A stretch of DNA of 64,000 bases from Capitulum mitella (taxonomy: Eukaryota; Arthropoda; Thecostraca; Pollicipedomorpha; Pollicipedidae). The notes under the pieces are model-generated. The model saw only the letters and a list, made by a program, of their open reading frames with translations. It did no database searches and had not been told where the DNA came from. Where the stretch lies: contig CP099848.1 of assembly GCA_030062745.1 (NCBI GenBank), positions 18,091,081 to 18,155,080 of the forward strand, in the 5' to 3' direction. Positions 6,834 through 53,700 of this stretch are shown here, one piece after another. The position numbers were made by a program, and so were the translations under genes. The number at the start of each line of letters is the position of its first letter. Within the stretch, counting starts at the first letter, position 1.

Positions 6834-9800
6834 ATGGAAAAACTTGAATCTCTGTTGGATCAACTCGACCAAAATAAGAAAACAGTTATGCTTTCTGGGA
6901 ACTTTATCTTTGACCTTCAGAAAACATGTAGCCACGAACACTTATCATTCCTCAGCCTTCTAAAACCCTACGGTTTCTCTGCCAGTTACCAATCCAACCC
7001 GTGTTACGAATCAGAGATCGTCTTTAACTGATATTTTTGTTAAAGACAGCTCAATTTACCGGTCACCAGGAATTGTAGTATCTGATTTATCGGATCATTT
7101 TCCGATATTCCCATCACTTACTCCAAGCGTTCATGATATCTTTGAAAAGAAAAAAACGGAAAATATTTGACTTCAGTAAGATGGCAAACTGAAATGAATA
7201 CCTAAATATCAGACTAAGACATTTTTGGTGCACTGAGGACCCAAATGAAGCATGCAGTGAGTTATTATCCGCGTACCAAGATGGAATTAATTCATTTTGC
7301 GAGGACAGGGAATATTCTAGGAGAAAGTGTCCATTAAAACCTCGGATCAGCCCAACGATATTGTGTTCAATAAGTAAAAATATGAACTCTTCAAGAAGTA
7401 CTTAAAACAAAAGAGCGTTATTAATGAAAATGATTCGCAGAAAACACAGAAATATATCAACAAATACCATTCGGGATCCAAAGAGATTGTACTTCAAGTG
7501 GAAAGTGGAGCAGAGTGGAGCAAAGTGGAAGGGAATAAAAATGACATAAGGAAAACTTGGCAAATTATTTACCACATTCCCGGAGAGCTAGACGGTATGA
7601 CCGATTCCCGGCGGGGGCGACTTCAGCTCCAAATGAAATCTCGGGGTGGATGGGGGTGGATGGGATTAGGAACCAGTGGAGGCGCACGGGCGCTGGCAGG
7701 AATGAGCAGAAACAGCTGGCCTCGAATGGAAAAATTAGTCACGTCAGAGAAACAATGCCAGTCAACCGAAATCCGGCATATTCTCCCCGTGGGACGGACG
7801 TTTATCCGATTTCATCTTTGTTTGGCCACCAAATGACCGTGAATCTGAGCGTGATGCAGGAAACCATCCGTCAGCCCTACCCACGCCCGGACCTCACCGT
7901 TCATCTTCATAACCAAAACCCTCGACGTAAAAGTGAACCGTCTATACGCTGTCCACATCTGACCTGCCTCATCCTTTAAATGTTCTGCTGATGGCAGTGA
8001 CCGCAAAATGCAGCCCGCTTGTGCGCAGGCGCCCCCGTTCACGGCAAGCAACGGCTCCACAACGACGGACGTGGGCGGCTACAGCTGTGTCCGGCTGGCG
8101 ACACATTCCGGGACCCGCGATGCCCTGGCACGGGTCCAGGCGTGTTCCGGCGGCCGCAGGGATCGATCTGGTCCATTTTGCGCATTGTTGCAGAATGTTG
8201 CACAGTGTTGCACACGGACCTATATCTCTGCAACGGTCAGCCAGAGCGCCAAACGGACACCGCCAGCGTGCTCGCGAGGTAACAACCGACCTAACGGCAT
8301 CTTGGGTCGAAAGTTGCAAAACGTTGCAATGTAGCGAAATCGCCCCCTTTGCAATGGCACGTTACAGTACGTAAAAGGAACAGCTTGGAAAAGTCATTAG
8401 GTTTTGTGAAACTGCGCCACAAACCCTGGAATGGGCAAGCAAAGAACCCGAGTAGGAGGATTCGGCCTCCCCCTGCTGGGAATAGGGTTAATAATTTAAT
8501 GAACAAAAATATAGGCAACCGGACAAATTGCCTTCAGTCCTATTTGATGATGATAATACACAGTATAACGAGAAGCTGTTGCTTTTAATTAAGAGGGATT
8601 TAATGCTTTTTCTCCTCTATTGGTCAGAAACCTGAAAGTAAAATTCCCCATTCAAACAAAAACCCAGTTGACTGTCTTACCGAGCAAGATTATGAATCCT
8701 CTCGAAACAGCTTATCTACCACTTCTGGAGAAATTGAGGCCATACTTAAATCTCTGAATCAGGTGAAAGGAAGAAAAGTCGGTACAAGTGCACGAATCCT
8801 ATTAGGTACTTACAAAATCATTTTGGAACATCTAACATTTTTATTTAACATTTGTCTTCAGTCACCCGTGTTGCCCTCATTACTAAAAATTGCTATCATT
8901 AAGCCTGTTTTCAGATCCAGAGATAAAAATGAATTTACCAGTTATCAGCCGTTTGCGTTACTGCCTGTCTTCTCAAAAATATTAGAAAAGACCGTATATA
9001 GGTATCTTTCTTTTTACATTAAGGAAAAACAGATTTTGTCACCTCTTGAATTTGGATTCAGGAAGAAACACTCCAACCTACGTGCCTATTTCGCTCTTAG
9101 CTGATGAATTACTGAATCACGCATTGAAAAGCAAATTATACTAACAGTTTATTTTGATCTGTAAAAAGAAGTGTGACACCGTAGGCATCTCTAAATTATT
9201 GGAAAAACTGAAAAAGACTGGTCTCATTGATCCATTGTTTAACATACTGAATCATTTTTAAATAGCATGTATCAGAAACAGAAGCAAATAATGTTTCAGA
9301 TGATTAAGAACAAAAAATGGGAATATCTGAAGGCGAAATTTTGGGGCCATTGTTACCTGTAATATGCATCAATGATCTTTCTTTTGTTTCTAGCTGATTT
9401 AAAACATACCATTTTGCTAATGATATCGTAGTAATGTTGGACGAAAATTAATAAATATATAACATAATAAATATATAACATATTTTGACATAACATAACA
9501 TATACAAAAAATATATAACATGAAAAAGTGTGTTGAAAAATGTATTCCTGAAGTAAGGCAGTGGTTCTCTGCTAACAGGTTATCTCTTAATGCATCAAAA
9601 ACCGTCTATCAAGTTTTTTCACGCACCTGTCGAAATTGATTTTGATATAATCTTGGACAACACCAGACTATGCCGAAATAAATAATTCAAATATCTCTGA
9701 GTTACAACTGCCGAGCATTTAACCTGGGTCTGCCATATCAACAAAATATCAACCATCATCAGCATTTTCATCGGTGTTATAGGGATGATTTAACATTCAC

Positions 9801-18195: not shown

Positions 18196-21100
18196 ATGGA
18201 CCACGCCGGGGTGGCGTTATTACTGCTGCTAGGTGAGCGCGCGGTCAGCCAGGCGAGCATAGACTGTCGGCTGTGGGCGCAGCGTGCCCCAGCCAGGGGC
18301 TTTCTAGTGCCGACAGTGGCCACCTCCCAGGTGGGTCTTTATGCCCGGCGAGCCGCTTCGCACCGGTGGAGATGTTTTCGACTGCGGTGGAAGGTAAGAT
18401 GGTGGCAGTATTTTGAGGAGTTCTACAGTATGTTTCCTGCAGTGGTGGTAACGCTTCGCTGCAAATGAGACCCTGAAGTGACACGATTGATTCTGCGTGC
18501 AGGAGCCACCAAAGGGTTACGGGCGACGAGAAACATGGCCAGCGGAGGTCCAGAGATGTCAACGGACTTCTCCCCTAGTAATCTTTGTTTAACTTTCCTC
18601 GGGTTCGGCGCCAGGCGTTTGGCGTTTTTCTCGAGACGTTCTGTCACAACTTAGCTCCGTTACGAAAACCCGAGCTACTCCGCTGCAGTTACGGAGGGCA
18701 GCGTCATCCGCATTGCCGAATAAGCCCGTTGTGGGGCACTTGACAGATATTCCGAGGAGGAGTTTTGCTGTTCCGTAGATGCGGTCAAGCCCCAGTACGT
18801 GCAGCCATCTCCGACTGACTCGCGTGCTCTCACGATCTCAGTAACAGCGTCTGACCGTCAGATGCTCTGCACCCTATGTGGGTTCTTCGGTGGAGAAGGC
18901 CTCTCTCGGTACGCGTCCGGGAGTGTCGGGGACGCGGCTGCAACTGTGTCGCGTGCCGCTGACTCTGAGGCGCTGCCGTCCGTCCCCAGCGTGCGTTCCC
19001 GGCTGCCGTCCGTGGATGCCGGCGCCCAACAGCCAGTCCCTGCACTTGGGCGACCTGACCGAAGAGCAGAACCAACTGGTGCAGAGACTCTGGGCGCACA
19101 TCTTCTTCTCGGTGCCGGAGACCGAGGTCAATTACCTCCTGCAGGCCGCCAAGACCTCCTCCACAAAGATGCCTGTTGACGGCAGGAACGTCACCCAGGT
19201 CAGGATTAGGAGCTTCTCTCATTTCCAACCAAACAATTTGATTACATCGGTGTAGGTTTCTGTTGCTTTGTGGTTGCTTTGCTTCCCCTCCCCTCAATTT
19301 CCATCGATTACTTCCAGAATTTTGTAGTGGATTTAACATGGGACCATGTCAGGTGAGCACCCGAAAAAATATTGAGTCCCCAAGACTATGCATAAGCGGG
19401 TACCATAATTCATTAAATGCTCTACCGACACTTTACAACATACAAATGAGTGCATGCTCTCTGTTTTCTACTTCGCTGAAAAAAACGCCGTAAGACTTAA
19501 CCATACTACCGATTATCGAGTATCATTGGGTTTATTGAATATGTATAATGACAGCATGTTATTTAGTTATGAAACGTTAAAAACCACTAATTTCCTGGGT
19601 TCGTACGCCTTTCTGCTTTTTAAGCTGAACAGCTGTATGTGTCACAAACTGTCCAGGAATGACGCATCACTTACAAAATTATTCACATTCACATTGACTG
19701 GATTGTCGCTTCGCATACATCGTCGCAGTGTGGGCGCAAGTCCGTTTTATCGCCAGGTGTGGGAGGCTGGTGTACCTGTGGAGGAAGCCGACAATGACAT
19801 GGTGCGTGGTATGCCGGTGGACCACGTGCCCGAGGATGACCTGCTGTGGAGCGTCTACAGTAAAGAGATAGAGCGCTACGCAGAGGTAACCACAGCACCA
19901 CTGGAGAAGCCGAACACCGGAGGCGTGCTGACCACTGTTAATTTGTGCACCTGTCGTTCATATTTTGCCTTTCGCCAGAGTTCACCAAACATGTCAGCGC
20001 GATATCATGACGCATATCAATATCGTGTTTCGTTTGAGCGATGTTGGCGGAGTTCTCGTTCAGAGCCGCCTCCTCAGAAAACTTCGAATCAAAGATCCTT
20101 TCGCACTGGCACGCCGTATGCACAGCAAAAAGCAAATGGCGCGCAACTGCGTCCTAAACGAGAACCTTTTCAGCCACGATTCGACCTAGCATGTGCAAGT
20201 CTGTGGTGCTTGGCTGAGCTGTACTCTGAATTTATCCCCTCTGTGTCTGCTGTTGACTAGGTAGATCGGGAGGTTGCCAGAGGAGACCGGTATCCACGCG
20301 TCAACCAGCATCACCTGGAGCTGATGCTGGAGAACGTTTTCCAGAACGTGCGGTCTGACGAGACTGACTCAGGTGAGGTGGAGTCACGTGTGGCGCCTGT
20401 GGCTGTATCACTCTGGCGAAGGGCGGAGGATCACGCTTCAGACAAATCAGCAACTTAGGAATCAATACGTGTCGGTGGCTCTGGAAAGTCGGTTCTGTGG
20501 ATGTTTAATGGCCGTGTGTAAAACGTCATGCATATTACAATGTACTGACGACATTTTGATGGCATTCGTTTAATTACAAGTTTTTGCTGCATGGCGTCCA
20601 ACTGCATGGTGTTCGAAGGGTCAGCTGTAAACATTTTACGTCTCTAGTGAATGGTTTTGAGCTGCAATAAAAACAGTTGAAAACGCATCACGCGAACCAG
20701 TTTTGACAACCTTTTTTCTCAGCGCTAAAGAGTTCCGTCCGGATGTACATCACCCGCAAGTTCTACGCCTACAACCTGCTGTCGCTGAACCACGTGTTCC
20801 AGTTCAAGCCGGCCGACCTCAGGTCATTACAGGAGGCCTTTTCGCCTGACCAACAGGATCTGGAGTCCGCCGTGAGTGGAGGGCTGGCCACACACGGCCT
20901 ATGAGTGGTGGGCGCAGTGTTATCAATGCTAAGTAATAAGCTTGTGGCCTGTTCTTTCAGGCTGAGTTGAGAAGCTTAATAAAAACAGTCTTAAATAGTA
21001 GGTTAACCCTATTCCCGGCAGGGGGGCGGAATCCGCCCCCCCTCGGGTTTTTTGCTTGCCAATTCCAGGCTTTTTGACGCAGCTTCACGAAACTTGGTGA

Positions 21101-24100
21101 CTTTTCCTAGCTATTCCTTCTACGCGCCGTGACAAAATTTCGAAATTCTATTTTGCTCAGGGGCGGAGCCAGGCAACGTTTTTGGGAGGCACCTCAGGTC
21201 ATTTTTGGCCATGTTCAGGGTAAAAGGAAAATGTCTGCCAAAAACAGAGTTTTTAAGATAGAACTTAAAACTTTATATGAATATATAGCTAAATAGCTGG
21301 GTAATGTGCATATGTAATTTTGTTTATCTGAGGTCACAAAACAAGGTCAGGTCAAGGTCAAAAGTCAAAATTTGTTTTTTTGCAATCATTTCGGCGCCGT
21401 TTTTTCAAATGCCAAACCCGGAATATATATGACGTAGAAAGATGCCCTCTACTTGTGTACCAAGTTTCAGCTTGATACCAGGTCAGGTCACGGAGCTATG
21501 ACCTAAAATGTCAGTGCACGTACCATATATCGCAAAAGCCAAAAAATGAATTTTTTTGGAATAGAGTGAATTTAATCGATTAAAAACGTTTACAGATAAT
21601 ATTGAATGCACACGACATCATTCCAGGTGACCCCAAGGTCACTGGAGGTCATTTAAGGTCAAAGGTCACAAGTTGATCTGAGAAACGTGTGACCATGACA
21701 GTTCCCCCTTTTTTATGTCCCTGGCACCGCCTATGCTAACATTATACAAACATTGTAATGCGATTTGTACTTCTTTAGCATAACATGACTAGCAGAAGCT
21801 AAAAAAGTGTTTTGGCCTCTTTTGTTCATTCCGTTCTTGGAAAACTAATCCCCCTATTTTTGAAACCCTGTGAACGCCCATGAATTTTCTAAAAATTTCA
21901 AATTTGCATACCCATGGTAAAAGCCCTATCCATAATCTCTCGATTGATGCCAGTTTCATCGAAATCGGTCCATAAACAACGGAGTTATAAGAAGTCAAAA
22001 AGTACCCCCCATTTTAACATTTTTGCCCCCCTGTATCCACAAATTTCAAAATTTTGAAAATTTCTTTTTATCAAAATGTAGTTCACGTCACGGCAAATCG
22101 ATTTCCGTTTGTTGCAATGAAATCGGATAAGTAGTTCTCGAGATCTCAGGGGGGGGCCGAATCCGCCCCCCCCCTGCCGGGAATCGGCCATACCGTCTAG
22201 CCCTCCGGGAATAGGGTTAAGAGAAAAAGCAATTCCGTTTTTTTTTTAAATGGCGTTTTTTCCGAAACCTATAATGGCTGATTGTTAATGATCTGTTGCG
22301 TGATTTCTGCTCAACGTTACCCTCTCTAGCTGTTAATCGATAAATTGCTTTGCTAAAAACCACATTCAAGATACTGGCTAGAGCACAGACTATTCCGGAA
22401 CATTTGTTATACATATTGGATGCTGGAGTTAACTGCATTAAAATATTTAAGCAACGACTTGCAGATCTGCTGATATTGCCTTGTTCAGCCAGTTAGAAAA
22501 GACCTGGTCGTCATTCCTTTGGTCAACTCATGTAATGCAAGGTATTTCCAGACGGCCGAAAGGGGTGAGCCGCATGATAATTTCCAAACAGCGTAATTAG
22601 GGAATGGACTGCGGTACCATTTCATTTCATTTCGCATCAAAGGTGGCATTTAATTTCACAGAGCACGGTGCAGCAGCATCCCTTCTAACTACTAGTAGCT
22701 CAGTCAGTCGCATGTGTTAAGCATATAAATGTGAACAATTACAACAATGCCCAGCTCTCAAAAATGGTTTGATGCCCGTTTTTGTCGTCGCTCTCATTCA
22801 CGGTGCCATCTGCAGGTGCACGTGGAGCAGAAGCCGGAACCGATGGGGGTAAACGTGGTGGGCATCCTTCCGGGACGCCGCTGGGGCACCGACGCCGACC
22901 GGCTTCTGATCGTGGGAGCGCACTACGACACGGTCCCCAACAGTCCAGGTAAAGGAGCACTACGACACGGCACCCAGCAGTCCAGGTGCCGGAGCACTAC
23001 GACACGGCACTCAGCAGGCCAGGTACCGGGGCATTACGACACGGTCCCCAACAGTCCAGGTAACGGAGCACTACGACACGGTGCCCAGCAGTCCAGATAC
23101 CGGGGCACTATAACAGCACCCAGCAGGCCAGGTACCAGGGCACTACGACACGATGCCTAACAGTCCAGGTAACAGAGCGCTACGACGCAGTGCCCAGCAG
23201 CCCAGGTACCGGGGCACTACGACACGATGCCCAACAGTCCAGGTATCTACTACGAACTACGACGCCGCGTCCAGCAGTCCAGATATCAGGATGCAACGGC
23301 ACTGTGTCCAACAGGTACCACGACAGTGTGGCAGTTTACTGGCTACGACAGCAGAGGGGTGACGAGAGTCGAATTTCCTAACTTTTGTGAAACTTATGTG
23401 ACAGATATGCTCTGTCTGAAAAAAAACGCAAGGATTCCGGCACTGGGCAAAAATTAATGAAAGTTAATGCAGTCTTGAAGACTGCACTATCTTTCCCTAA
23501 TTTTTGCCCAGTGCCGGAACCCTTGCACAACCGTCGAGAAATCCGATGCTAAACCATTCCGACTCTGTGCACAACAGTTCAGGTATTGAGCTGTTACACG
23601 GCCGTACTTACTGTCCCTGAACCGTGAGATTACAACGACCTGCTGATCCAGGTATTTGGACATTATGACGAAGATCCAACTGTTCCGCAACTGGGACATT
23701 GCATCATCTGGTCCGGCGGTCTAAGACTGGTGAAGTGTTGCCGCTATTTGCGAATGCTATGGTGACATAGCGTCGCAGACTCTCACGCCATCTCTTGCGA
23801 GACATGACAAAGCCATGAGGCCGGCGGATTCAAGCTCAAACATCGCAACTCGAAGCTGATGTCACGTTAAGACCATAATCAAGTCGAGATGAAGATCACC
23901 AGTTGGGTCCGCCCCTGAGACGCTAGACCCGTCCCTACGATTACCCTCGCTGGATCTGGCCGTGCCGGTCCTCTTATGGGTCCGTCCCTGAGACGTTAGA
24001 CCCGTCCCTACGACTACCCTCGCTGGATCTGGCCGTGCCGGTCCTCTTACGGGTCCGCCCCTGAGACGTTGGACCGGTCCCTACGATTACCCTCGCTGGA

Positions 24101-26333
24101 TCTGACCGTGCCGGTCCACTTATGGGTCCGTCCCTGGCCGTTCATGCGCTGGATCCAACCTACGAATGTGTCTTCTGGATACTTCTGTCAGCTTTCGAAT
24201 ACATCCCCGTCCTCTTTGCTCGCACTTATGCTGTTGCTGTTGCACTTGTGATCGCACTTAATTTTGCTGTTGATCCGTGGCGCGTTTTGCATACCTTTCA
24301 ATACGATGATTATTCCGTATGTCCTCTGAATTGCCCCCTCCCCAACAAGTCTCTGTTGATTCCGTTTCTGTGAGATCTGTACCTAGCTCCCCTCCTGACA
24401 GAGCTTTGGTTCCGCCACTGTGAGAACTGTGCCTGGGTCCGCTCCTAAGAGAGCTGTATCTGGCCCGCCATTGCGGTGGTTGTACCTCAGTCCTGCTTCA
24501 CTTGAGAGGGTTGTACCTGGGTCCGCCCCTGTGGGAGCTGTGCCTGGGTCCACCCCTGAGAGAGCCGTACCTGGGTCCGTTCCTAAGAGAGCTATATCTG
24601 CGCGCACCCTTCAGAGAGCCGTGCCCGGGTCCGCCCCTGGGAGATCCGCACCTGAGTCGGCCGCCGGCGACGCCGGCTCGCTCTGCTCCAGGAATGGACG
24701 ATAACGGCTCGGGGGTGGCGGCCGTGCTGGAGGCGGCCCGCGCTCTCTCGGAGACCGGCTGCCGCTCCGAGTTCAGCCTGGTGTTCGTCGCCTTCGACCT
24801 GGAGGAGATCGGCGGCGCCGGCTCACTCGCCTTCGTCCAGCAGTTCCTCAACGACAAGATCCTGGAGCCAGCCGGCTGGCCCCGGGCGCAGGGCGCCTTC
24901 ATCCTGGACACCGTCATGAATTACAACGCCAGCCGCGGCGTGCAGACGGTGCCGCCCGCCTGGGTGACGCAGGTGCGGTGCTCTGGTCGGCCGGGCGGCC
25001 TGACTGGCCCCAGGGGAAGAAGGCAGGCCTGCTTTTCAATGTCCCCATGAGACGGTTGGTCCTGGGAAGTCGATGTTATAAAAGAACGCTAAATTGCGCT
25101 GCTCCGTTGTCAAATGCTCCTGTGACGCGTGTCCCGTGCTATCGTGACTTGTGTCCCACACGGCACGACTTTCAGCGCCATCTGTTGACTTCGCTAGATC
25201 CTGTTTAAGTTTTATGGGGGACAGTTCCTTGCACAATGGGGGCCGTATAAAATGAATGAGAGATGTAAGCTACGTACTGGAATGATTTTTGCAACTGAGT
25301 GGTTCATGAACGCCCTTGTCTTAACCAAGTGTGTGTGTGGGGGGGGGGGGGGGCAGCGAACTGACTGTCCAAGACGTATAGACCTTGGCATCATCCGAAA
25401 CTGTTAATTATCCTTGACACCTACGCCGCGTCTCATCCCCCGCACCTGAACGCGGTCGTCTGTGGGCAGATGGCGGAAGCTGTGCAACGTCTAGACGAGA
25501 ACGACGCCCGGGGCGACTTCCTGGCGGCCGTGTACCGCCGTCACGTGGACCAGCACCTGGTCGACGCGTACGCCTACCACTACCAGCGGCTGGGCAACAA
25601 GGACCGGTACCGGCTGGAGCGGTACGACGTGGACCTGCCGGCATCCCGGCCGACGGACGACGTGCTCTACGCTCACATGGACGCCATGCGCTCCGACCAC
25701 AGCCGATTCTGGTGAGGACGCTTCGGACAGGGATTCGGGGGTCTTAACGGCAACACGTGTAGTGTTGCATGCTCGTTGACAGCTGCCCATGAAGTCGCTG
25801 ATACAAAGGACACATATCAGAATTGAACTGTATGGAGTTCACTAAGCTGAATGGGAAAGAACGGCCTTGGGGATTCTGGAGATAGGCATTTTCTGCAGCT
25901 ATCGGTGGATTGGTAGTAATCTTGCAGATGACGTATTTGCCAAGTAGTAAAAAGCTATCGGTAGTTCTCCAGTGCCGACCTGTCAGCCCGTACAGAAAGA
26001 AAACACAGGGTCGTCAAGTTCCTGAACGTTGTTTGCGTGCCGGCCAGGTACCTGTCGCGGGCCTCGAACGAGTCGGCAGCGCCCGAGACGATCCCGGCCG
26101 TGCTGCTGACCGACACGGGTCCGTTCCGGGGCGTAATGGCACGCTGCTACCACGAGGCCTGCGACAGCGCGCCGCTCATGCACCATGCCAACGCCGACAA
26201 CCTGCCATTCCTGACACAGTCCACCCAGGCGCTGGTCAACACTTTGGTCGACCTGAGCAGGGCTGAGTGCAGCGGCCAGCCGCTGGCGAGCCCCCCGCCG
26301 CCACTGCCATCTGTTGAGAAGAATTTGAGCTAG
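18196..26333 (+). CDS. Secreted M28-family zinc peptidase, nine exons, 525 residues
   Basis: Likely a zinc exopeptidase of MEROPS family M28, secreted or lysosomal. Exons: 18196-18232, 18990-19198, 19757-19885, 20261-20372, 20723-20871, 22816-22948, 24692-24972, 25470-25711, 26048-26333. Every junction is GT-AG and phases agree (1,0,0,1,0,1,0,2). The first exon gives MDHAGVALLLLLA, a signal-peptide start. Predicted zinc ligands are all present: His248 (HYDTVP), Asp260 (MDDNGSG), Glu295 with catalytic Glu294 (DLEEIGGAGS), Asp329 (ILDTV) and His476/477 (HHANADN). Residues 14-212 form an N-terminal region with a conserved look (LWAHIFFSVPETEVNYLL). The Pro-rich tail ends SVEKNLS. The start has G at +4 and follows a possible acceptor (cctcgcag). 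Introns hold a family A element (intron 5) and minisatellites (intron 6). Substrate cannot be told from sequence, and the M28 subfamily is uncertain. An AATAAA lies at 27379-27384 if the 3' UTR is long. Confidence 0.88.
21007..22216 (+). mobile_element. Family A TTAA element, copy 1 (1210 bp)
   Basis: Flanked by TTAA at 21003-21006 and 22217-22220. Termini CCCTATTCCCGG and CCGGGAATAGGG are perfect 12-bp inverted repeats. Next to the left terminus is a GC hairpin (ggggggcgga and tccgcccccc around one base); the right end is similarly G/C-blocked. No transposase frame. TTAA duplication and CCC start fit a piggyBac-like MITE; Kolobok also uses TTAA. It sits in intron 5 of the M28 gene and carries arrays of AGGTCA half-sites. 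Confidence 0.88.
21331..21668 (+). promoter_or_regulatory. Nuclear-receptor half-site arrays inside family A element
   Basis: AGGTCA occurs at 21331, 21344, 21349, 21355, 21636, 21646, 21656 and 21663, with AGGTGA at 21625. The second group reads DR5, DR4, DR4, DR1 with starts 11, 10, 10 and 7 bp apart. TCAAGGTCA (21352-21360) and CCAAGGTCA (21633-21641) match the FTZ-F1/SF-1/ERR monomer consensus YCAAGGYCA. Binding is inferred, not shown. Confidence 0.55.
22913..23310 (+). repeat. 37-bp minisatellite built from the M28 exon 6 end and splice donor
   Basis: About ten degenerate units of the form gagcactacgacacgg-cccagcagtccag-gtaccg. The first unit is the real exon end, coding for HYDTVPNSPG and followed by the donor gtaaag. 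Later units repeat the coding segment and a CAG|GT donor-like junction. A 37-nt unit is not a multiple of three, so use of a later donor would shift frame. Units become more diverged toward 23300. Confidence 0.88.
23428..23526. repeat. 99-nt near-palindromic hairpin
   Basis: gcaagg-ttccggcactgggcaaaaatta on the left is inverted as taatttttgcccagtgccgg-ccttgc on the right. The centre is itself a perfect hairpin, tgcagtctt-g-aagactgca. Could be a tiny MITE or a miRNA-like precursor; it lies in intron 6 of the M28 gene. Confidence 0.85.
23905..24140. repeat. 73-bp minisatellite, three full units plus a partial
   Basis: Units begin gggtccg(c/t)ccctgagacg at 23905, 23978 and 24051, with a partial unit at 24124. 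The full units differ at only a few positions. Intronic. Confidence 0.92.
24370..24665. repeat. About 30-bp degenerate minisatellite before exon 7
   Basis: Repeating phrase of the type gagagc(t/c)gt-cctgggtccgcccctg, about ten units, running almost to the acceptor of M28 exon 7. The open frames across it on both strands are repeat artefacts. Confidence 0.85.
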
Positions 26334-32140: not shown

Positions 32141-33222
32141 ATTCCTCAATGTTCTGTTCATGGCTGTTGTGACACAGGGTTTACACTCGGGTATTTTAAA
32201 CCGACACCGCCTGGCGGGTGTCAAAAAGGGCACCCCCTGCTACCTCAGGATCTAACTGTCGGATCTGAACCAGTCTACCAACAATCGATAGCACTGAGTC
32301 TTGCAATTCAGAAAATGTTATGCTGCGCCTGGTCACATGAGTGATGACGTCACAAGCCACGTAAAACGCATAACACGACGTCGGAAAAAACTAACATTAC
32401 TTCGTACATCAAACCACTGGAAATAGTGGTCTTAAAGCAATAAATGTTGTATCAAACGAAAGGTCACGATCTTTTGCATTAAAGTCATGCCAGAATGTTA
32501 AACAATGTCGTGTCAAGATCGTTCTAGGTCAAGTGACATACCGGTCTTACTTTACAAGCCAAAGATCGATACTAACTCGCAGCAGTTTTGATCTAATTGA
32601 CAAAAACGATGGAAGTGAGATCTTCTTATGATCAGTTCTGCATTATCTGCGTTTCATCCAGTCAAGGTAAGTCCAGATTAGGTGGAATAACGTTGCATTA
32701 CTCTCCCTGACAAAGAATGGCAATTACTCCTTAGGATTCTTAACTGTGCCAAGCACAGAACTGAAATGATTCCTCGTAATAACTGGACCTGCTCTGTCTG
32801 CTCTTTGTCCGGTTCAAGGCCAGCCAAATCAGGACAAACTGACATTTTCCTTGGAAAACTGACATTGACTTGGAATTTTCTCTGACTGAATAATTGTTGT
32901 CTGCTGCTTCTGGACGATATTCTACTGCTAATATTGAATTTCATTCGTTTTGACATCTACCTATGACGTGACCTGACATGACCTCACTTAGCATTTGGAG
33001 AATATTGTTAAGAGGCCGATATAGATTTGCTTGTCTAGCTTGAATGATGAGGTACATCTGCGGTACCACTTCTTTTACTCAGAATGCAAATCAGTCCAAA
33101 TGTCGTCATGCATGTGACACAGCATGATTTCTAATGTTGATGTGTTACGGTTCTATATCCTTTTGGGGACCGTATCCTAAGTAAATCCAAATAATTCGGT
33201 CATTAAATTTGCTAATGTTTAA

Positions 33223-34429
33223 CCCTATTCCCGGCAGGGGGGGCGGAATCCGCCCCCCCTCGGGTTTTTTGCTTGCCAATTCCAGGCTTTTTAACGCAGC
33301 TTCGCGAAACTTGGTGACTTTTCCTAGCTATTCCTTCTACGCGCCGTGACAAAATTTCGAAATTCTATTTTGCTCAGGGGCGGAGCCAGGCAACGTTTTT
33401 GGGAGGCACCTCAGGTCATTTTTGGCCATGTTCAGGGTAAAAGGAAAATGTCTGCCAAAAACAGAGTTTTAAAGATAGAACTTAAAACTTTATATGAATA
33501 TATAGCTAAATAGTTGGGCAATGTGCATATGTAATTTTGTTTATCTGAGGTCACTTTACAAGGTCAGGTCAAGGTCAAAAGTCAAAATTTGTTTTTTCAA
33601 AATAATTTCGGCGCCGTTTTTTTAAATGCCAAACCCGGAATATATATGACGTAGAAACATGCCCTCTACTTGTGTACCAAGTTTCAACTTGATATCAGGT
33701 CGGGTCACGGAGCTATGACCTAAAATGTCAGTGCACGTACCCTATATCGCAAAAGCCAAAAAATGAATTTTTTGGAATAGAGTGAATTTAATCGATTAAA
33801 GACGTTTACAGATAATATTGAATGCACACGACATCATTCCAGGTGATCCCAAGGTCACTGGAGGTCATTTAAGGTCAAAGGTCACAAGTTGATCTGAAGA
33901 ACGTGTGACCATGACAGTTCCCCCTTTTTTAGGTCCCTGGCACTGCCTATGCTAACATTATACAAACATTGTAATGCGGTTTGTACTTCTTTAGCATAAC
34001 ATGACTAGCAGAAGCTAAAAAAGTGTTTTGGCCTCTTTTGTTCATTCCGTTCTTGGAAAACTAATCCCCCTATTTTTGAAACCCTGTGAACGCCCATGAA
34101 TTTTCTCAAAATTTCAAATTTGCATACCCATGGTAAAAGCCCTATTCATAATCTCTCGATTGATGCCAGTTTCATCGAAATCGGTTCATAAACAACGGAG
34201 TTATAAGAAGTCAAAAAGTACCCCCCATTTTGACATTTTTGGCCCCCTGTATCCACAAATTTCAAAATTTTGAAAATTTCTTTTTATCAAAATGTAGTTC
34301 ACGTCACGGCAAATCGATTGCCGTTTGTTGCGAAGAAATCGGATAAGTAGTTCTCGAGATCTCAGGGGGGGCCGAATCCGCCCCCCCTGCCGGGAATCGG
34401 CCATACCGTCTAGCCCTCCGGGAATAGGG
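33223..34429 (+). mobile_element. Family A TTAA element, copy 2 (1207 bp)
   Basis: TTAA at 33219-33222 and 34430-34433; perfect CCCTATTCCCGG / CCGGGAATAGGG ends. It is nearly identical to copy 1 over its whole length, with only scattered substitutions and small gaps, so amplification was recent. The half-site block is retained. Confidence 0.88.
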
Positions 34430-34696
34430 TTAAAAAACGAAGCATGTTCGCGCCACCGCCGGAAGAGGCAAAAACATGCATGCAAGGGTTCATTTATGAC
34501 GTCATATCTTCATGACCTAACGTAGCATGAAAATGGTTTTGGTGTCTAAATATGTAGAATAAACTATTGAACAGGTGCTGGAAATTTGGTTGGGCTGACT
34601 CTAACGGTTCAAAAGTTATTAAAAAAGCGGGGTGACCTGTTTGAACCCCCAGGAGGGGCCGAGTTAACACCCACAGTGGAAGGAGGTTTCACGCTA

Positions 34697-38083: not shown

Positions 38084-38087
38084 TTAA

Positions 38088-39290
38088 CCCTATTCCCGGA
38101 GGGCTAGACGGTATGGTCGACTCCCGGCAGGGGGGGCGGATTCGGCCCCCCCTGAGATCTCAAGAACTACTTGTCCGATTTTATCGCAACAAACGGCAAT
38201 CGATTTGCCGTGACGTAAACTACATTTTTATAAAAAGAAATTCTCAAAATTTTGAAATTTGTGGATACAGGGGGCAAAAATTTCAAAATGGGGGGTACTT
38301 TTTGACTTCTTATAACTCCGTTGTTTATGGACCGATTTCGATGAAACTGGCATGAATCCAGAGATTATGGATAGGGCTTTTACCATAGGCCCGCAAATCT
38401 GAAATTTTCTGAACATTCATGGGCGTTCACAGGGTTTCAAAAATAGGGGGATTAGTTTTCTAACGACTGAATGAACAAAAGAAGCAAACACTCTTTTTTG
38501 GCTTCTGCTAGTCATGTTATACTAAGGAAGTACGAATCGCATTACATTGTTTGTATAATGTTAGCATAGGCGGTGCCAGGGACATAAAAAAGGGGGAACT
38601 GTCACGGTTACACGTTTCTCAGATCAACTTGTGACCTTTGACCTTAAATGACCTCCAGTGACCTTGGAGTCACTTGGAATGGTCTCGTGTGCATTTAATA
38701 TCATCTGTAAACGCTTTCAATCATTTGAATTCACTCTATTTGAAAAATTTCATTTTATGGCTATTGCGATATAGGGTACGCGCACGGACATTTCAGGTCA
38801 TATCTCCGTGACCCGGCCTGATATCAAGCTTAAACTTGGTACACAAGTAGAGAGCACCCTTCTACGTAATAAATATTCCGGGTTTGATATTTGAAAAAAT
38901 GACGCCGAAATTATAGCGAAAAAATAACTTTTGACTTTTGACCTTGACCTGACCTTGTAAAATGATCTCAAATAAACGAAATTACATCTGCACATTGCCC
39001 AACTATTTAGCTATACATCCATATAAAGTTTTAAGTTCTAGCTTTAAAACTCTGTTTTTGGCAGACATTTTCATTTTACCCTCAACATAGCCAAAAATGG
39101 CATGAGGTGCCTCCCAAAAACGTTACCTGGCTCCGCCCCTGAGCAAAATAGAATTGTGAAATTTTGTCACAGCGCGTAGAAAGAATAGCTAGGAAAAGTG
39201 ACTAAGTTTCGTGAAGCTGCGTTAAAAAGCCTGCAATTGGCAAGCAGAAAACCCGAGGGGGTGGATTCCGCCCCCCTGCCGAGAATAGGA
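38088..39290 (-). mobile_element. Family A TTAA element, copy 3, reverse orientation
   Basis: TTAA at 38084-38087 and 39291-39294. The left end ccctattcccggagggctag is the family 3' end reversed; the right end has decayed to ccgagaatagga. Full length (1203 bp), with more substitutions than copies 1 and 2. Confidence 0.85.
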
Positions 39291-39294
39291 TTAA

Positions 39295-41076
39295 CATCGA
39301 AACGTTAAGATGCCCAATGGCGGAATATCACGGGGTTATATTTTGTATCATCGTGGCAGGGACAGACATCATACCAGGGCGGGTATCGAATGGCCAACTT
39401 TCGCATTACAAAATATGGCGTGGGGCAATACGTAACATCTAAATATATCAAAGGATTAAGACTATACCAGGACAGGATCATCATAGTATGATGGTCAAGA
39501 CCTTCCGTCTGTCAAGATCGCGGACGAAATCCAAGTCCCGGTTATTCGAAATGTTCCCGTTCCTTCTCCCTAAGTTGTGACTGTTGCTGACAGATGTCAT
39601 CAGCGTGAGCCGTCGCCGAAGATCGTCGGTGCATTTTACGGTTCTTGCATCCGAAACGCTGGGGAAAAACATTTTCTAACCCAATGTCATGCGTTCTTGC
39701 CAGCTGGAAGATCTCTGGCAACAGTAGTCACAGTCTATCGCCAAAATACAACTGGGAAAAGAGCAGGGGATTTTTTTCTTTTTTTACTCCCAGGAAACGA
39801 ACCTCTCATCCAGGCCTGCAAAATGCGAGTATTTCTGCAGCCACACTATCATGTCCAGTAGCAAAACCAGGATATCAGCCCGGTCGGTTAGGCTCGGCGA
39901 CCCTTTGAAACAACCGGAATATTCATCTCATAGAATTCTAGCTTAACAGCAGAGATACTTGGGAGATTATGCGTGAATCCTGGAAAGCTCTCACGACATT
40001 CCTGCTGGGATGCCTTCGTGCAATTTTCGGGAAAAGTCACTACAGGCAGTTTGTAGGTAACGACAATGCGGAAGGATGTAATGAAACAGTCTGGACTGTC
40101 CGGACTTGATGAAATGACGATCGGACGCTCCGACTAAAAATCTGCTTGGCTCTGACGGCCCAAATGGGAAGACGAACGAAGAATACACGACTCATTCGTC
40201 GTCCGTCTTTCTTCTGACGAACAGACAAACGGTCAGACGAAAAAGCAAGGAGATGGACGGACCATGGACGACGGATAATGGGAAAGGCGGGGGAGGAGGG
40301 CGAGGCTGCCCCTATCGGCAAAGCCGGAGACAAACATATCATTTTGCTCGTAAAAACAACCTGATGGCCCAAGCTTGCGGAGGGGCCACCAAAAAAATGG
40401 AGCAAAAATCATTGTGTTAGCGTACGTACTGTAAAAATCAGGCACGCAGCCAGGGAAAAAAATCGTGGAGTCCTCGCCCATTGGTGGGCCCTCTCACTTC
40501 ATGTGGGCCTCTTGGACAGCAGTGACACTCAGAAGGCTGGCATGGGCTCCACAGGCCGGCAGGATGCCCTACAGATCGGCAGGAGGCCCCCACAGGCTGG
40601 CAGGACCCCCTGCCGGCCTGTTGGATGTCCGGAAAAAATGGAGAAAAACAAATATGGCGACAGACGTGAAAGTGAATGCTAGATGGCGAATGCTTAATGA
40701 CGACATGTAAAAAGGCGACACGTTAAAATTGCGACTGGCCAAATGGCGAATGCCAAAATGACAACATGGAAAAAGGCGTCACTAGCCAATGGCGAATGTC
40801 AAAATGGCGCCATGCAAAAAAGGAGACGATCTAAAATGGCGATTGGCCAAATGGTGAACGGCAAAATGGCGATATGTGCAAAGGCGACTTACCAAAATAG
40901 AGAACGGCCAAATGGCGAGCGGCAGAATGACGACCTTGAATTAGACGGCATGCCAAAATGGCGAGATGATAAATGCAAATGACAAAATCGTGAATTTTTT
41001 GGGAAAAATTACCTAAATGGTGCGCGTTGATGGTTTTGGACTCAGATTAATATACGTTAAACCCCGATATATCTCA
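39295..41076. other. No recognisable gene; ATGGCG-type minisatellite at its end
   Basis: Frames at 39.5-39.9 kb and 40.0-40.5 kb overlap on both strands and show no known domain. The only clear structure is the ATGGCG array listed separately. Confidence 0.5.
40650..40970. repeat. Irregular minisatellite with nine ATGGCG cores
   Basis: Degenerate units of roughly 20-40 bp containing aaaatggcga, caaatggcga or ccaatggcga. Nine ATGGCG cores occur within about 320 bp, all in one orientation. GCCAT (reverse of ATGGC) is the core of YY1/Pleiohomeotic sites. Confidence 0.75.
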
Positions 41077-47776: not shown

Positions 47777-50700
47777 ATGAGTGGAAGTAATTGTGATGAA
47801 ACTATTTGTATCATGACTGGGACACTGCTCTCTGGTCTTTTGAAGGAGAATTTGCAACCTGGCAATGACAGAGTGAGTAAAGCATTCTGAGTAACATTAA
47901 TGCTTATGCATGCTATGTTCATTTGAGTGTATGGCCAGCATTACCATACCTTGTCATGTTTTTTGTGAAATTACAGGGAAAACAGGGCTTTAAGCAATAC
48001 CTGTCATCACTCCCAAATGTATTAAATGTGTGTGTGGTATAATATATATAGCTGCCAATGAGTTACCTCTTGTCATAAGTTAGGTTGCAAAGGTAATGAT
48101 AAGCCTGACTGCAGTTTCACCATGATGACAAAATGCATGTGTTTGGTTCTAAATGCACATGTCCTGATGGCATGTTCTTGCTGACATTTTAGGAGGGGTT
48201 CCTGCTGGGAAAATGCACAATGCAGAAGATTCAGGTGAATAGTGATGCCCTGAGCAACACTGCAAAAATGCAGGAGCACATTGGTGAGTAAGACATATAA
48301 TTCACACAAAAATTTCATTCTCTGATGGTGTGTGTATGTTGTCTTTGTGCTTGTCTATATAGACAAGCACAGGGATAGTTCTATGTGTGGTTTAAATGCC
48401 TTGCATGATGTATCCTTCTGTGTATGCAATGGACTCCTTTGTCAGTATGGTTTGTCATTCATCTTCTCATTGTCACTTTGTACTATTTATGGCTGTTGAC
48501 TTATGTGCATCCAAATACAATTCCCCACACAGTACACAGAATAAGTCACATCATCATGCTATTTACAGTCCATATTCCATCAACCATAGGTGTAGTGCTT
48601 TTGGTTGCAAGGATACTTGGTTAATACTGTAATAGCTTGCAACATGCTGTGTACTGGCATGACCTCTTTTTCAACTTCCTTTGAAAAGTTTTTCTCCCTT
48701 AGGTGTTTTTATGTGATTTTCATCGCTGATTCCAGATATAGCCTCAGATTTGCAATTTAAAAAAAAATTGGCTGCACCGGCCATTTCAAGTTTTTTTTCA
48801 TTTCCCTCATTTTTGCATGTTTGGCTAACTCTTGCACAAGCTGTAGAAGGAAAAGGAAAAATGGACATTTAACAATACACCAATTCTTTATCAATACGTT
48901 GGTGTTAACATGAAGTCTGTATCTTCGTCCGTTAGCTGGCAATATCGGTCAGAAAATTGTCTTTCCGTCGTAGTTCGCCCCTTCGGCAACAGGTGGTGTT
49001 AGTGTACCTTGACGGCAGGCCGTCGCCACAGTGGCGTTAGTTGTGAAGATCGCGGTTGTCATGAGGGCAGAAATGGATTTACCTGCCAGCAGACGTGTTG
49101 GTAGCTCACTGTGGGTACCAATGGACGAGATAAAACTGTACGATTATCCTCTGTGGTAATAAGCGATACAGAATCGTCTTAGATGCCACCGGCTCACTCG
49201 AATCGTACCTAACTGTGCTTACCTACTTACCGACTTACTCACTTACCTACTGACTCATGTGTACCTCACTTTCCTACCACTTACCTACCCTCCGGTACTT
49301 TCTGTCGCTTCTTCGGTGTTCCTAGGATGCCGGCATGTGAATAAACTTGTCATTTATCATAAGGGACCAGACAGGTAGTACTAATGATAATGTTTAACTG
49401 GCTTTTAAAGCCGAGAACATAATGCAACATTTGTTCGCGTTTTTTGAACTTTTTTAAATCATAATTTTTGCGTTTTTATTTTTGTTTAAATTAAAAAGGC
49501 GAAAACAGACGTGACCCTGGCGGCTGCCGTGGCTAAGGTGGTGGCGGATCCAGTCGTGACGGCGACGGAAGTCACGGCGGTGGCAATGGCAACGGTGACG
49601 GCCTCGGTGTGAGTAGCCGTGGCAGCCGAGGCAGCGACAGCAATGGCGGCGGCGGAGGTATGGGTGGCGTTCTATTCTTGGGGGCGGCGGAAGCTGGCTT
49701 TGGTGACCTGGCCTGGAAAATGAAGCCGGAAAGCTCTCCTGTTTAGAGCATGGCCATCTTGGCGGTCGGTACCAGTGACGGCGGCGGCTGCCTCGGTCGT
49801 CAGCTTCACCGCGCACTCAGTCGTCTGCATGTAACAGGGCACGCCGGTCTTCAGTGGCGCTTGTAAGCACATGTCGAGCTCGAACTCGTCCATCAGCTTT
49901 ACAAACGGTGGTTCAATCTCGCTTTCCTCAGCGACGCGCCTGACGTCAACCAGCTCGGTGTACTTCTGCGCGTGGAAGTTGATTTCCGGCGCTTTGAAGC
50001 TTCGGATCATCCGGCCCGGACAACGGCGCTGACGGATGGACCTGATTAGGTTGACCGCTTTGGCTCTGGTTGTCTGGTCTGCGTCACGTAGCATCGCAAG
50101 GACCACGTTCTCGGGGTGCGCCATGAAGGAGTTTCTGGCCATGCTGCACTGCACGGCGGCCAGCGAGACGCCGCTGATGTGTTGCCGCTGCCGCCACTTC
50201 TGGTCGACCAGGTGACCCGGCGCATCCACAGCGTCTCACCTGTGCTCGATGCTGATGACTGTCGGCACATAAACACAGATCACGTGTCGGGCCAGGGTAG
50301 AAAGTGCGTCGGATGGGTGTGGGACAGACATGAAGTGCTGGAGCAGGCGGCTCTGAGCCGTTTACCACCTGGCCATGCATAATTTGCCGTGCGCCTTTTT
50401 TCGCGACGCCGTTTGCGTCGCCGGTGACCACACCCTTCGCGCACTGGTACAGCAGTTTCATGTCAGAGCTCTTGCTGCCCTCTACAGTGTCCGGCAGATC
50501 AGGGAAACCATCATATCGCATATACTCGAATGTTTCCACAGGCAGAGTGTGCACGGGTCCCGCGATGCGCTTGCCTATCGGGCCGGAAAAGGTGGTCAGC
50601 CCAGCGGTCTGGCCGTCGATCTGACGGAAGAGGGCGCGATATGGCAGCTCGACTTGATGACAAAGGCACGCAGCCCTGCTCAGTGGCCGACCGGCAATCT

Positions 50701-53700
50701 CTTCGAACTTACCCAGTCATCCGCCCCGCCTACCCACAACCTGGTTGGTGCCATCACCGCCAACAAACGCTGTCACTTTTCCTACATCAGCGTCACGCTC
50801 TCCCATAAAAGCATACAACTTCTGTGCCAATGTTTCCCCCGTATGGCAACCATCACAGGTAAAATGACCTGTATGAACATTGTCTGGGTGCATATTCACA
50901 GATACGTTACGCACGGTATATACTTCTTCGAGCCAGCCGCAGACGTGATCTCCTTTTTCGTTTCATCATCGCGTCCATCACAAAACACAGCACAGCACTG
51001 CGAGGCGCCCACACTCACACGTTTTACTTCCTCGCTCCTGGTGTTATCAAGGGCCCTCTGCACTTTGGTTTTTGTGATGGCATTCCCGTTACAGCGATCG
51101 AGACTGAAAAAAGTAGTTCTGACGTATTTCGAGCACCATTGTCAGTGGTATCCAGAGCTGCTGCCACGGAAGCCAAATTCTCGCCTTTTTTAGGAAGAAG
51201 GTAGGACATGACGTATTCGGAGTCATTCCCATCTCTTTCACAGCTGTCTTACAGCTCATGTGACGGAGTATTGACAATTGCCAGAGCTGTAGAGGCGCTG
51301 GCGGTGGAGGAGGCAACGGTGATAGTGGCCGTGGCCGTGGCGGCGCTGACGGCAGCAGTGGTGTTGGCGTTGGCGGCGGTGGCGACGGCACGGGGGACGG
51401 CGACCAGTACAGCAGTGCGTGTAGCTGTAACGTCGGCCGCGACAGTAATGGCGGCGGTGGTTTCTGACGCATTTGATCTATTGATAACACGTGCTTTGTG
51501 GTGCCGCTGCTCTCGCTTCTTCCATTGTGCTGTTGTAGCCTGATCTACCGTCCCGATATACAGGCGCCGGCCCACTCTGGTCGTTGAGGAATGCCCTGGC
51601 ATAGCAATGTTCAGGTTGCGCAGTCGGTTTTGAGACGTCGGAAAGTGACGCCATGCGAGTGGTTATGCGAGTGACGTCACGCTGCCGAGGACGTTTCCTT
51701 ACTGCCTCCTTGAGCTTCCGTAGTTTGATGACCGCTTCTCTCACCCTATGGCTCTTCTCGTCGGAATCGATACCCGGCTCCAAATCTCGATAGCCTCATC
51801 AGTCACCTTGTCGATGCGTGTTGGCGTGGAGACATGGTTTTCATCGACACCTCGTTCTTGCATTTCTTCTAGTCCCAGCGTCATGATTTGCCCCACAACT
51901 GGACCGCAAGTTGGAAGCTGATTTGAAAGACATGGCTTCACAGCAAACTGGGCGTGAGGCAGTCTCATCTTCGTACGAAACGATGCTCCTTCCATGTTGA
52001 GCTCGTAATTGTAGAAAGGGCAGTAGCTACGTTCCTACTTTTGACAGCCTTGTCAGCCTAATGGTGCCTGCTACAATTTTTCACATCTTTCATGAAGCAG
52101 AAATAATCAATCCATACCTTTCACGAATTCAAAAATTTTCAGATGTTTTTAGCTACTAATTATTTACCTGAAACTCCTTGTCACAAAGTAAGAATAATAT
52201 TCAGCATTTTTTACTATTCTATTGTTACCTGTAAAACATGTATTCATTACTTCAGTCTGAATTGTGTGCGACGACTCTGTCTTGCCTATTGGTAACCACT
52301 GTGGATAATCCTACAGTTTTATCTGGTCCATTGGTACTCATCGAGAATGGCGAATACGTCTGCTGGCAGGTACATTCATTTTCGCCCTCATCACAGCCGC
52401 GATTTTTGCAACCAGCGCCATTTTAGCGACGGCATGCAGTCAAGACACACTGGCGCCACCTGTTGCGTGGAGGGTGGACTGCCTCGGAAGGACAATTTTC
52501 TGACCGATATTGCCGGCTAACGAATAAAGATAGAGAATTCGTGTTGATAAAGCATTGGCGTATTCATTGAATGCCCTTTTTTTCTTTTCTTTCCATAGCG
52601 TGCGCCAGCGCCAGCCAAACGTGCAAAAATGAGCAAAATGAAAAAAACTAAACGGCCGGTGAGGTAAAAAATTTCTGTCGAAAATCGTAAATCTGAGGTC
52701 ATGTTCGGAATCGACGTTCAGAGACACCAAAAACATCTTAGGAAGAAAAACTCTTCAAAAAAAGTTGAAAAAACGAGTCACCTACTGTGTATGCACCATT
52801 TTACTACTCCTTCCCTAGACTGTAGAGTGAACTTGTGTCTCAGAACAGAACATTTTGGTTTGTGTGCTAGTGACTCAGGTTGCATAGTTGATGGAAACTG
52901 TTACCGTTTGTTGGCTTCATGAGGCATCCTGGTGCACACTAACACTATTGTGTATTCTTCGGCCTGTTTATTAAGAGATCATTCACATTTGGCTTTTTGG
53001 TGTCACTGATAGTACGATTGATCACAATAAAGCAGTAAAATGATGCAGGTGGCCAACTGTCTGTATTGATATAAGTAAAGATGATAATAATGCAACACGG
53101 CTGCTGACTTCTGTCCCAGCCATGCTTGTGATAATATGATTGTAAAGCTTTGTTGTGTTGATATTTTTTTTATTGCTTCCAGTCATTTCAGACTTCCTCT
53201 CATGTGATCACATCGGAGAATTCTACACAGGCACAGGTCACTTGACTTCAGAGAAACTGAGCGCCCTGTTGGATGAAGATCTGGTATGTTATGAATAATG
53301 ACTTTCTTTACTAAACTAGTTTGCGTAACTCAACAGAACATGTTATGAAATGCTTTTCGTCAGCCGTGTGCATTATTGCATTTTCGCTTGGCTTCATTGT
53401 TTCCTATGTATGCATTCATCCTCATATGCAATTCCACATCAGGTATGTTCCTTGATGATCTGTGCTGCCTCTGCAATCATTATGTGCTCTCTTCATACCA
53501 AAAACGTTTTTTTCACTTATTCCATTCTTTGGTAGTGTTCCAGTGTGCATTACGTGATGGCTTTGTATCACCACCGTCATGCCTCTCGCCTGTTGGTCTT
53601 TTCTCTCCTGTCGGGCGGGATGTGTACCAGCTGTCAGCAGGATACACCCCTGACCGGCCGGCCTGCGTTCTTGGCTGGACAGGCGCCTCTGGTCGGGTGG

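Follow-up and report, generated by a model that had tools for sequence, protein, structure and literature searches.

Introduction

Transposons of the hAT type have ends of the form YAGGG or TAGGG, the catalytic residues of the Hermes transposase are D180, D248 and E572, and the target-site duplications of Mutator-like elements (MULEs) are long and variable. Hermes, with a transposase of 612 amino acids and inverted repeats of 17 bp, duplicates 8 bp of target and prefers nTnnnnAn (PMC10368747), and the inverted repeats of hAT elements are given as 10-25 bp (PMC3942097). A CxxH pair past the second catalytic aspartate is common to the transposases of hAT, Kolobok, P and MuDR (PMC3706591). Long terminal inverted repeats (TIRs) are described for Galileo, which carries the PF05485 domain and makes duplications of 7 bp, or of 8 bp in three copies (PMC4168063), and for arthropod MULEs, the TIRs of which span 13-1193 bp in the text and reach 1527 bp in a table of the same report (PMC13359780); MuDR duplications measure 4-10 bp (PMC10045372). 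Dada elements encode a C/DxxH DDE transposase and duplicate 6-7 bp; those whose ends can be defined lie within small-RNA genes, and neither Dada-U6 nor Dada-U1 has TIRs (PMC3706591).

Here we describe an element that occupies positions 48655-52784 of a 64,000-nucleotide stretch of Capitulum mitella DNA (C10:18091081-18155080; this whole stretch is called the window), inside an intron of the host gene Abraxas. It is probably the inactive remnant of what was once an autonomous DNA transposon of the cut-and-paste type, with a hAT-like DDE transposase. The element belongs to a family with many copies in its own genome that have the same inverted ends of about 500 bp, and its transposase is common to a second, younger family of 3.5-kb elements with ends of about 210 bp and an intact gene of 788 codons.

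Arms and protein recur together across the genome

A sequence-only reading of the window had proposed that two long arms enclose a single broken minus-strand gene within an Abraxas intron, and each part of this description was borne out. The region 48667-49178 aligns to 52270-52772 in reverse complement with a local score of 384, compared with 28 for the best of 200 shuffles, giving inverted arms of about 510 bp that are 74% identical over 521 columns (E 2e-91). When the two exon frames that flank the insertion were joined to the next exon, they matched the Abraxas 1 MPN domain (PF21125) with an E value of 8e-22. Between the arms, the gene can be followed through stops and frameshifts in nine segments that use three frames and comprise 701 codons. 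One stop falls within these segments, and more at their joints, whereas the two wrong frames hold 29 and 29; as the segments were picked to avoid stops, this low count is supportive only. The G+C content by codon position was 0.60/0.46/0.61 in total, with the second position strictly lowest in seven of the nine segments.

We then searched the window's own genome (477 Mb in 16 contigs) with a piece of the protein (49672-50235) and with the left arm (48654-49178). The protein piece gave at least 155 matches, itself included (150 of 461 first-look candidates were scored), and the arm gave 43, of which two are the arms of the window element itself (of 51 candidates, 40 were scored); matches were found on each of the 16 contigs. 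The protein matches fell into three rough sets: a close one, 60-83% identical to the window piece in the ten best rows past the window itself; an intermediate one, at about 37-52%; and a numerous, distant one, at about 35%. Of ten close copies (L009-L018), which like the window element belong to family 1, nine carry one or both arms close to the gene: seven are flanked by both, L009 and L016 have a single arm, and L015 is armless. This implies that arms and protein travel together. Homologues lying between long inverted repeats, which the sequence-only reading had proposed to look for, are found within this same genome. Alignment of the ends of further family-1 copies placed the terminal sequence near TAGGGTGACCCGTTTTTCAACTTTTTTTGAAAAG. 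An exact TAGGG was read in 11 of 32 family-1 ends, 29 of which could be aligned, the rest having variants such as TAGGT, CAGGG or TGGGG.

A younger family has an intact gene and perfect 8-bp duplications

The distant set of matches consists of a family of 3.5-kb elements (family 2; L019-L028), in which the copies resemble one another up to the ends and abruptly no further. These inverted ends are about 200-220 bp long, 73-76% identical and start with TAGGGTGGATCGAAAA, and TAGGG stands at both ends in all 17 two-ended copies. Pairwise identity between full-length rows is 92.5-98.8%, a degree of similarity that implies recent movement; the copies were picked for long open or full-length frames rather than at random. 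One of them, L019, has one uninterrupted frame of 788 codons (L019:2629-4992), and a second copy, on contig C1, is stop-free over its whole length (57 of 1036 candidates scored).

The duplications of family 2 were read in two rounds. In the first, a perfect 8-bp duplication flanked nine of nine two-ended copies (10 fetched; the left end of L026 reads N) and, in the second, eight of eight (nine fetched; one right end not found), so that all 17 two-ended copies among the 19 examined have one. Their targets show T at position 2 in 16 of 17 cases and A at position 7 in 16 of 17, which fits nTnnnnAn, and the consensus reads [AC]TGnnCAn. One more copy, the eighteenth, lies nested within a family-1 copy (L013, with L072; about C13:17910300-17913950), where CAGGGCAT was recognised by eye on both sides.

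The ratio of non-synonymous to synonymous substitution rates was 0.64-1.29 in family 1 (10 pairs) and 0.52-0.86 in family 2 (the 10 pairs listed), values that mostly reflect decay after insertion and offer no strong proof of constraint.

A sublineage of family 2 (for example L024, L025 and L027) differs in its reading frame: exactly three TGA and three TAG codons occur in 14 of the 60 listed rows. The sublineage copies that were fetched keep a downstream frame of 569 amino acids, and L024, L025 and L027 have perfect 8-bp duplications, for which reason this sublineage may have been moved in trans or may use a shorter protein.

The window element has an imperfect 8-bp duplication

In the case of the window element, a 7-bp duplication, CTGTGTA, had been proposed from the sequence alone; its two copies lie beyond the paired arms, at distances of 13 and 12 nt. 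Among 20,000 random draws, 68 contained a symmetric match of 7 bp or more, and when asymmetric matches were tested over 37 x 37 nt the figure was 260 of 4,975; given these two chance rates, the window duplication alone is moderate evidence. Once other copies had fixed the ends, the duplication became one of 8 bp with a single mismatch, CTGTGTAC at the left end against CTGTGTAT at the right end (7/8), and the length of 7 bp was given up in favour of 8 bp, the length seen in all 17 two-ended copies of family 2 examined. A family-1 copy on contig C12 has ATGCACAT on both sides (8/8).

The two families share a protein with conserved acidic residues

The intact 788-amino-acid protein of family 2 matches the window element in two stretches at 29% and 37% identity (tblastn, E 5e-37), and the read-through of the broken window gene aligns with it at 31% identity over 382 columns (blastp). 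Towards the N terminus the matches are weak: RKLYIGGVD of the intact protein aligns with RRLYIGTVD of the window (E 0.006), and the segment at 51249-51578 is 42% identical to the intact relative over 26 amino acids (E 0.006). In the alignment of the two, the N-terminal window segment 51759-52034 has no counterpart at that place in the intact relative.

Through these alignments, equivalent residues could be identified. D357 of the intact relative, in YYDGRED, corresponds to the first aspartate (D1) in FCDGRDDE of the window, placed by eye, and D424 in GSDGT to the second (D2) in GGDGT; C453xxH456 corresponds to CLCH, R554-W555 to RW, and E736 in PCHSQGVERW to the glutamate of PCYMQTTEC. In the intact relative, D1 and D2 are 67 residues apart, D2 and the cysteine 29, and D2 and the glutamate 312. 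Among decayed copies of family 1 and of the intermediate set, counting at each place those that extend over it, D1 is kept in 4 of 4, D2 in 6 of 8 (it is lost in L012 and L050, and in L010, which reads GGHDS, the D depends on the alignment), C in 9 of 10, H in 8 of 10, R in 7 of 9 and W in 9 of 9. In the last motif, P-x6-E-R, the P, the E and the R are each kept in all 13 decayed copies that cover it.

The last motif has the same spacing in Hermes, where P565-x6-E572-R573 parallels P729-x6-E736-R of the intact relative (P0004); this alignment at E572 was located by means of a consensus. The distance between the first two aspartates, 68 residues in Hermes and 67 here, is a lead rather than a test.

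Assignment of the element and alternative explanations

Because the protein lies repeatedly between long inverted ends, and because the ends of its relative are flanked by perfect target duplications, it is very likely a transposase, as the sequence-only reading had supposed. We infer that it is a DDE transposase of hAT-like type. Like Hermes, family 2 makes an 8-bp target duplication at nTnnnnAn; like hAT elements, both families have a CxxH pair after the second aspartate and ends of the TAGGG type. The sequence-only reading had assigned the protein to no known superfamily. This holds to the extent that no significant profile or PDB match was found, but the length and motif of the duplication, the terminal sequence and the spacing of the key residues all resemble hAT and leave the idea of an unrecognised superfamily unsupported. 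As Pfam and PDB matches are missing and the inverted ends are long, we describe the way the element works as hAT-like but do not assign it to hAT.

Several observations weigh against this assignment. The inverted repeats measure 210-510 bp here, compared with 10-25 bp in hAT and 17 bp in Hermes; the intact relative is also longer than the Hermes transposase (788 against 612 amino acids), and Pfam finds neither a hAT domain nor a BED finger in it. The read-through gave no significant Pfam match (the best, to DUF4139 at 0.019, lies below that model's cut-off) and neither did the intact relative (best 0.073 and 0.089, both unrelated), while searches with the intact protein and with a seven-row profile returned no PDB chain, Hermes included, at E values up to 10. 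Within family 1, only two of ten paired copies show a clean duplication when the frame is fixed (the window element at 7/8 and the C12 copy at 8/8), the remaining eight pairs agreeing at 0-6 of 8 positions. When shifts are permitted, a score of 7 is reached by 3 of 10 own pairs and also by 12 of 90 swapped pairings, four of which reach 8, because family-1 targets are often rich in TA and TG; family 1 alone would not settle the duplication length. The serine found four residues before the glutamate (E-4) in Hermes and in the intact relative occurs in none of 13 decayed copies, nine of which have threonine, and the window element has lost the R of the last motif (TEC), with the E kept. Moreover, the likeness of motifs to Hermes was looked for once the idea of a hAT element existed. 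Finally, two AlphaFold2 models of in-frame window pieces, each built from a single sequence, had mean predicted local distance difference test (pLDDT) scores of 33.6 and 33.3, too low to show an RNase-H fold with a helical insertion such as hAT transposases have; both predictions failed and carry no weight.

The same absence of matches, even for the intact protein and the seven-row profile, could mean that these elements form a separate lineage of superfamily rank, a CxxH-type DDE group that stands beside hAT and has a mechanism in common with it without being nested in it. Such a lineage would combine hAT-like 8-bp integration at nTnnnnAn with ends of 200-500 bp, its protein would have no known DNA-binding domain in the N-terminal part, and it would be numerous and recently mobile in this genome while falling outside the coverage of Pfam. 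In keeping with this, the inverted ends are about 10 times longer than those reported for hAT, and Pfam finds no DNA-binding domain in the N-terminal part of the intact relative. A missing Pfam match is nevertheless weak evidence, since Pfam models may cover the diversity of hAT unevenly, and the duplication motif, the TAGGG ends and the P-x6-E-R spacing are as in Hermes; we regard a separate lineage as possible and somewhat unlikely. Long TIRs with 7- or 8-bp duplications are also a feature of Galileo, and the element could on that account belong to the P superfamily, but the intact relative has no THAP or P-type Pfam domain, all 17 of its duplications measure 8 bp and their motif is [AC]TGnnCAn rather than GTANTAC, which makes this origin very unlikely. 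It is harder still to credit a MULE: arthropod MULEs can have inverted repeats of more than 1 kb, and CxxH occurs in MuDR too, yet no MULE domain was found by Pfam in either the read-through or the intact relative, and the strict 8-bp duplications seen here differ from the longer, variable ones of MULEs. Dada resembles the window element in having a transposase of the C/DxxH DDE type and a duplication of 6-7 bp, and differs from it in that the window element has long TIRs and is an intron insertion. That a host gene, or an unrelated coding sequence, merely happens to be framed by a chance inverted repeat would suit the single decayed copy in the window and nothing beyond it; matches on 16 of 16 contigs, paired arms in seven of ten close copies and the perfect duplications of the relative refute this explanation, to which we give practically no credence.

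If the element moved as a hAT-like transposon, the transposase would have bound the long arms, which probably hold several binding sites for it, and would have paired the ends. The predicted D-D-E active site, in which D357, D424 and E736 of the intact relative would bind metal ions, could then have cut both ends at TAGGG/CCCTA and joined them to a near-palindromic target at points staggered by 8 bp. In this scheme the CxxH pair after D2 would be the counterpart of the zinc-like pair of hAT, and the RW-bearing segment between D2 and the glutamate that of the hAT insertion. The window copy would have landed in the intron in antisense orientation to Abraxas and later decayed through stops and frameshifts.

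Such elements would widen the known range of hAT-like transposons to include long inverted ends, and their copies offer concrete material for testing the limits of the hAT catalytic group. Since the transposase has no significant Pfam match, annotation based on Pfam would label this recently mobile, multi-copy protein as uncharacterized or as a host protein.

Searches for described relatives

The read-through had no significant sequence match in Pfam, NCBIfam, PHROGs or PDB; weak Pfam and PHROGs matches of the read-through and of its pieces (E 0.019 to 6) were taken as chance. Protein searches and motif patterns run against IMG/VR, together with phage records, yielded no relatives, as expected for a eukaryotic element, and none of 18 pattern matches in prokaryote genomes was confirmed. 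A literature search with five peptide words typical of the family brought up no paper, and no published description was recognised in the titles and abstract openings of part of the matches, Repbase and Dfam being outside the scope of this search. Similar unnamed proteins occur in arthropods and cnidarians.

Features of the element and of the window

Table 1. Coordinates of the window element, its gene segments and the neighbouring host exons (window positions)
Feature	Position	Strand	Details	Basis
Abraxas 1 host exon upstream of insertion	48193..48283	+		borders by eye
Left target-site duplication	48647..48654	.	CTGTGTAC, 8 bp, first 7 equal to right copy	
Left inverted terminal repeat	48655..49178	.	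terminus TGGCATGACC, decayed form of TAGGGTGACCC	pairing and ends of other copies
G+C-rich low-complexity block	49491..49671	.	directly past stop of the open reading frame	
Transposase, 3' part	49672..50394	-	frame (end mod 3) 0; stop codon TAG 49672-49674; RW (codons 50370, 50367); PCYMQTTEC, candidate catalytic E codon 49818; internal stops 50364 and 50238	
Transposase, middle part	50396..50962	-	frame 1; second D (VGGDGT, codon 50755); stop at 50719; CxxH (C 50668, H 50659); DGQTAG..FSGPIGK	
Transposase segment	50962..51090	-	frame 0; first D (FCDGRDDE, codon 50979)	
Transposase segment	51077..51224	-	frame 2; ASVAAALDTTDNGARN	
Transposase segment	51249..51578	-	frame 2; RRLYIGTVDQATT, then A/T/V-rich low-complexity stretch; stop 51249-51251	
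Transposase segment	51565..51774	-	frame 0; IDSDEKSHRVREAV..AFLNDQSGP	
Transposase, N-terminal segment	51759..52034	-	frame 2; NQLPTCGPVV..VTDEAIEIWSRVSIPT	
Right inverted terminal repeat	52270..52784	.	terminus (reverse complement) TAGGTGACTCG	pairing and ends of other copies
Right target-site duplication	52785..52792	.	CTGTGTAT, 8 bp	
Abraxas 1 host exon downstream of insertion	53183..53283	+		borders by eye

Two G+C-rich low-complexity blocks of similar composition lie within the element, one after the stop (49491-49671) and one within the open frame (51260-51470, A/T/V-rich).

Elsewhere in the window, in which no tRNA or Rfam match was found, an open frame at 8604-9104 on the plus strand looks reverse-transcriptase-like by eye, with no Pfam match at E 0.1, and another at 24424-25050 on the same strand matches Peptidase_M28 (E 5e-13). 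A 1.2-kb repeat with ends of the form TTAA-CCCTATTCCCGG...CCGGGAATAGGG-TTAA is present in three near-complete copies (21003-22231, 33219-34444 and 38084-39295 (-)) and in partial ones; it looks like a non-autonomous element of the TTAA type (piggyBac-like).

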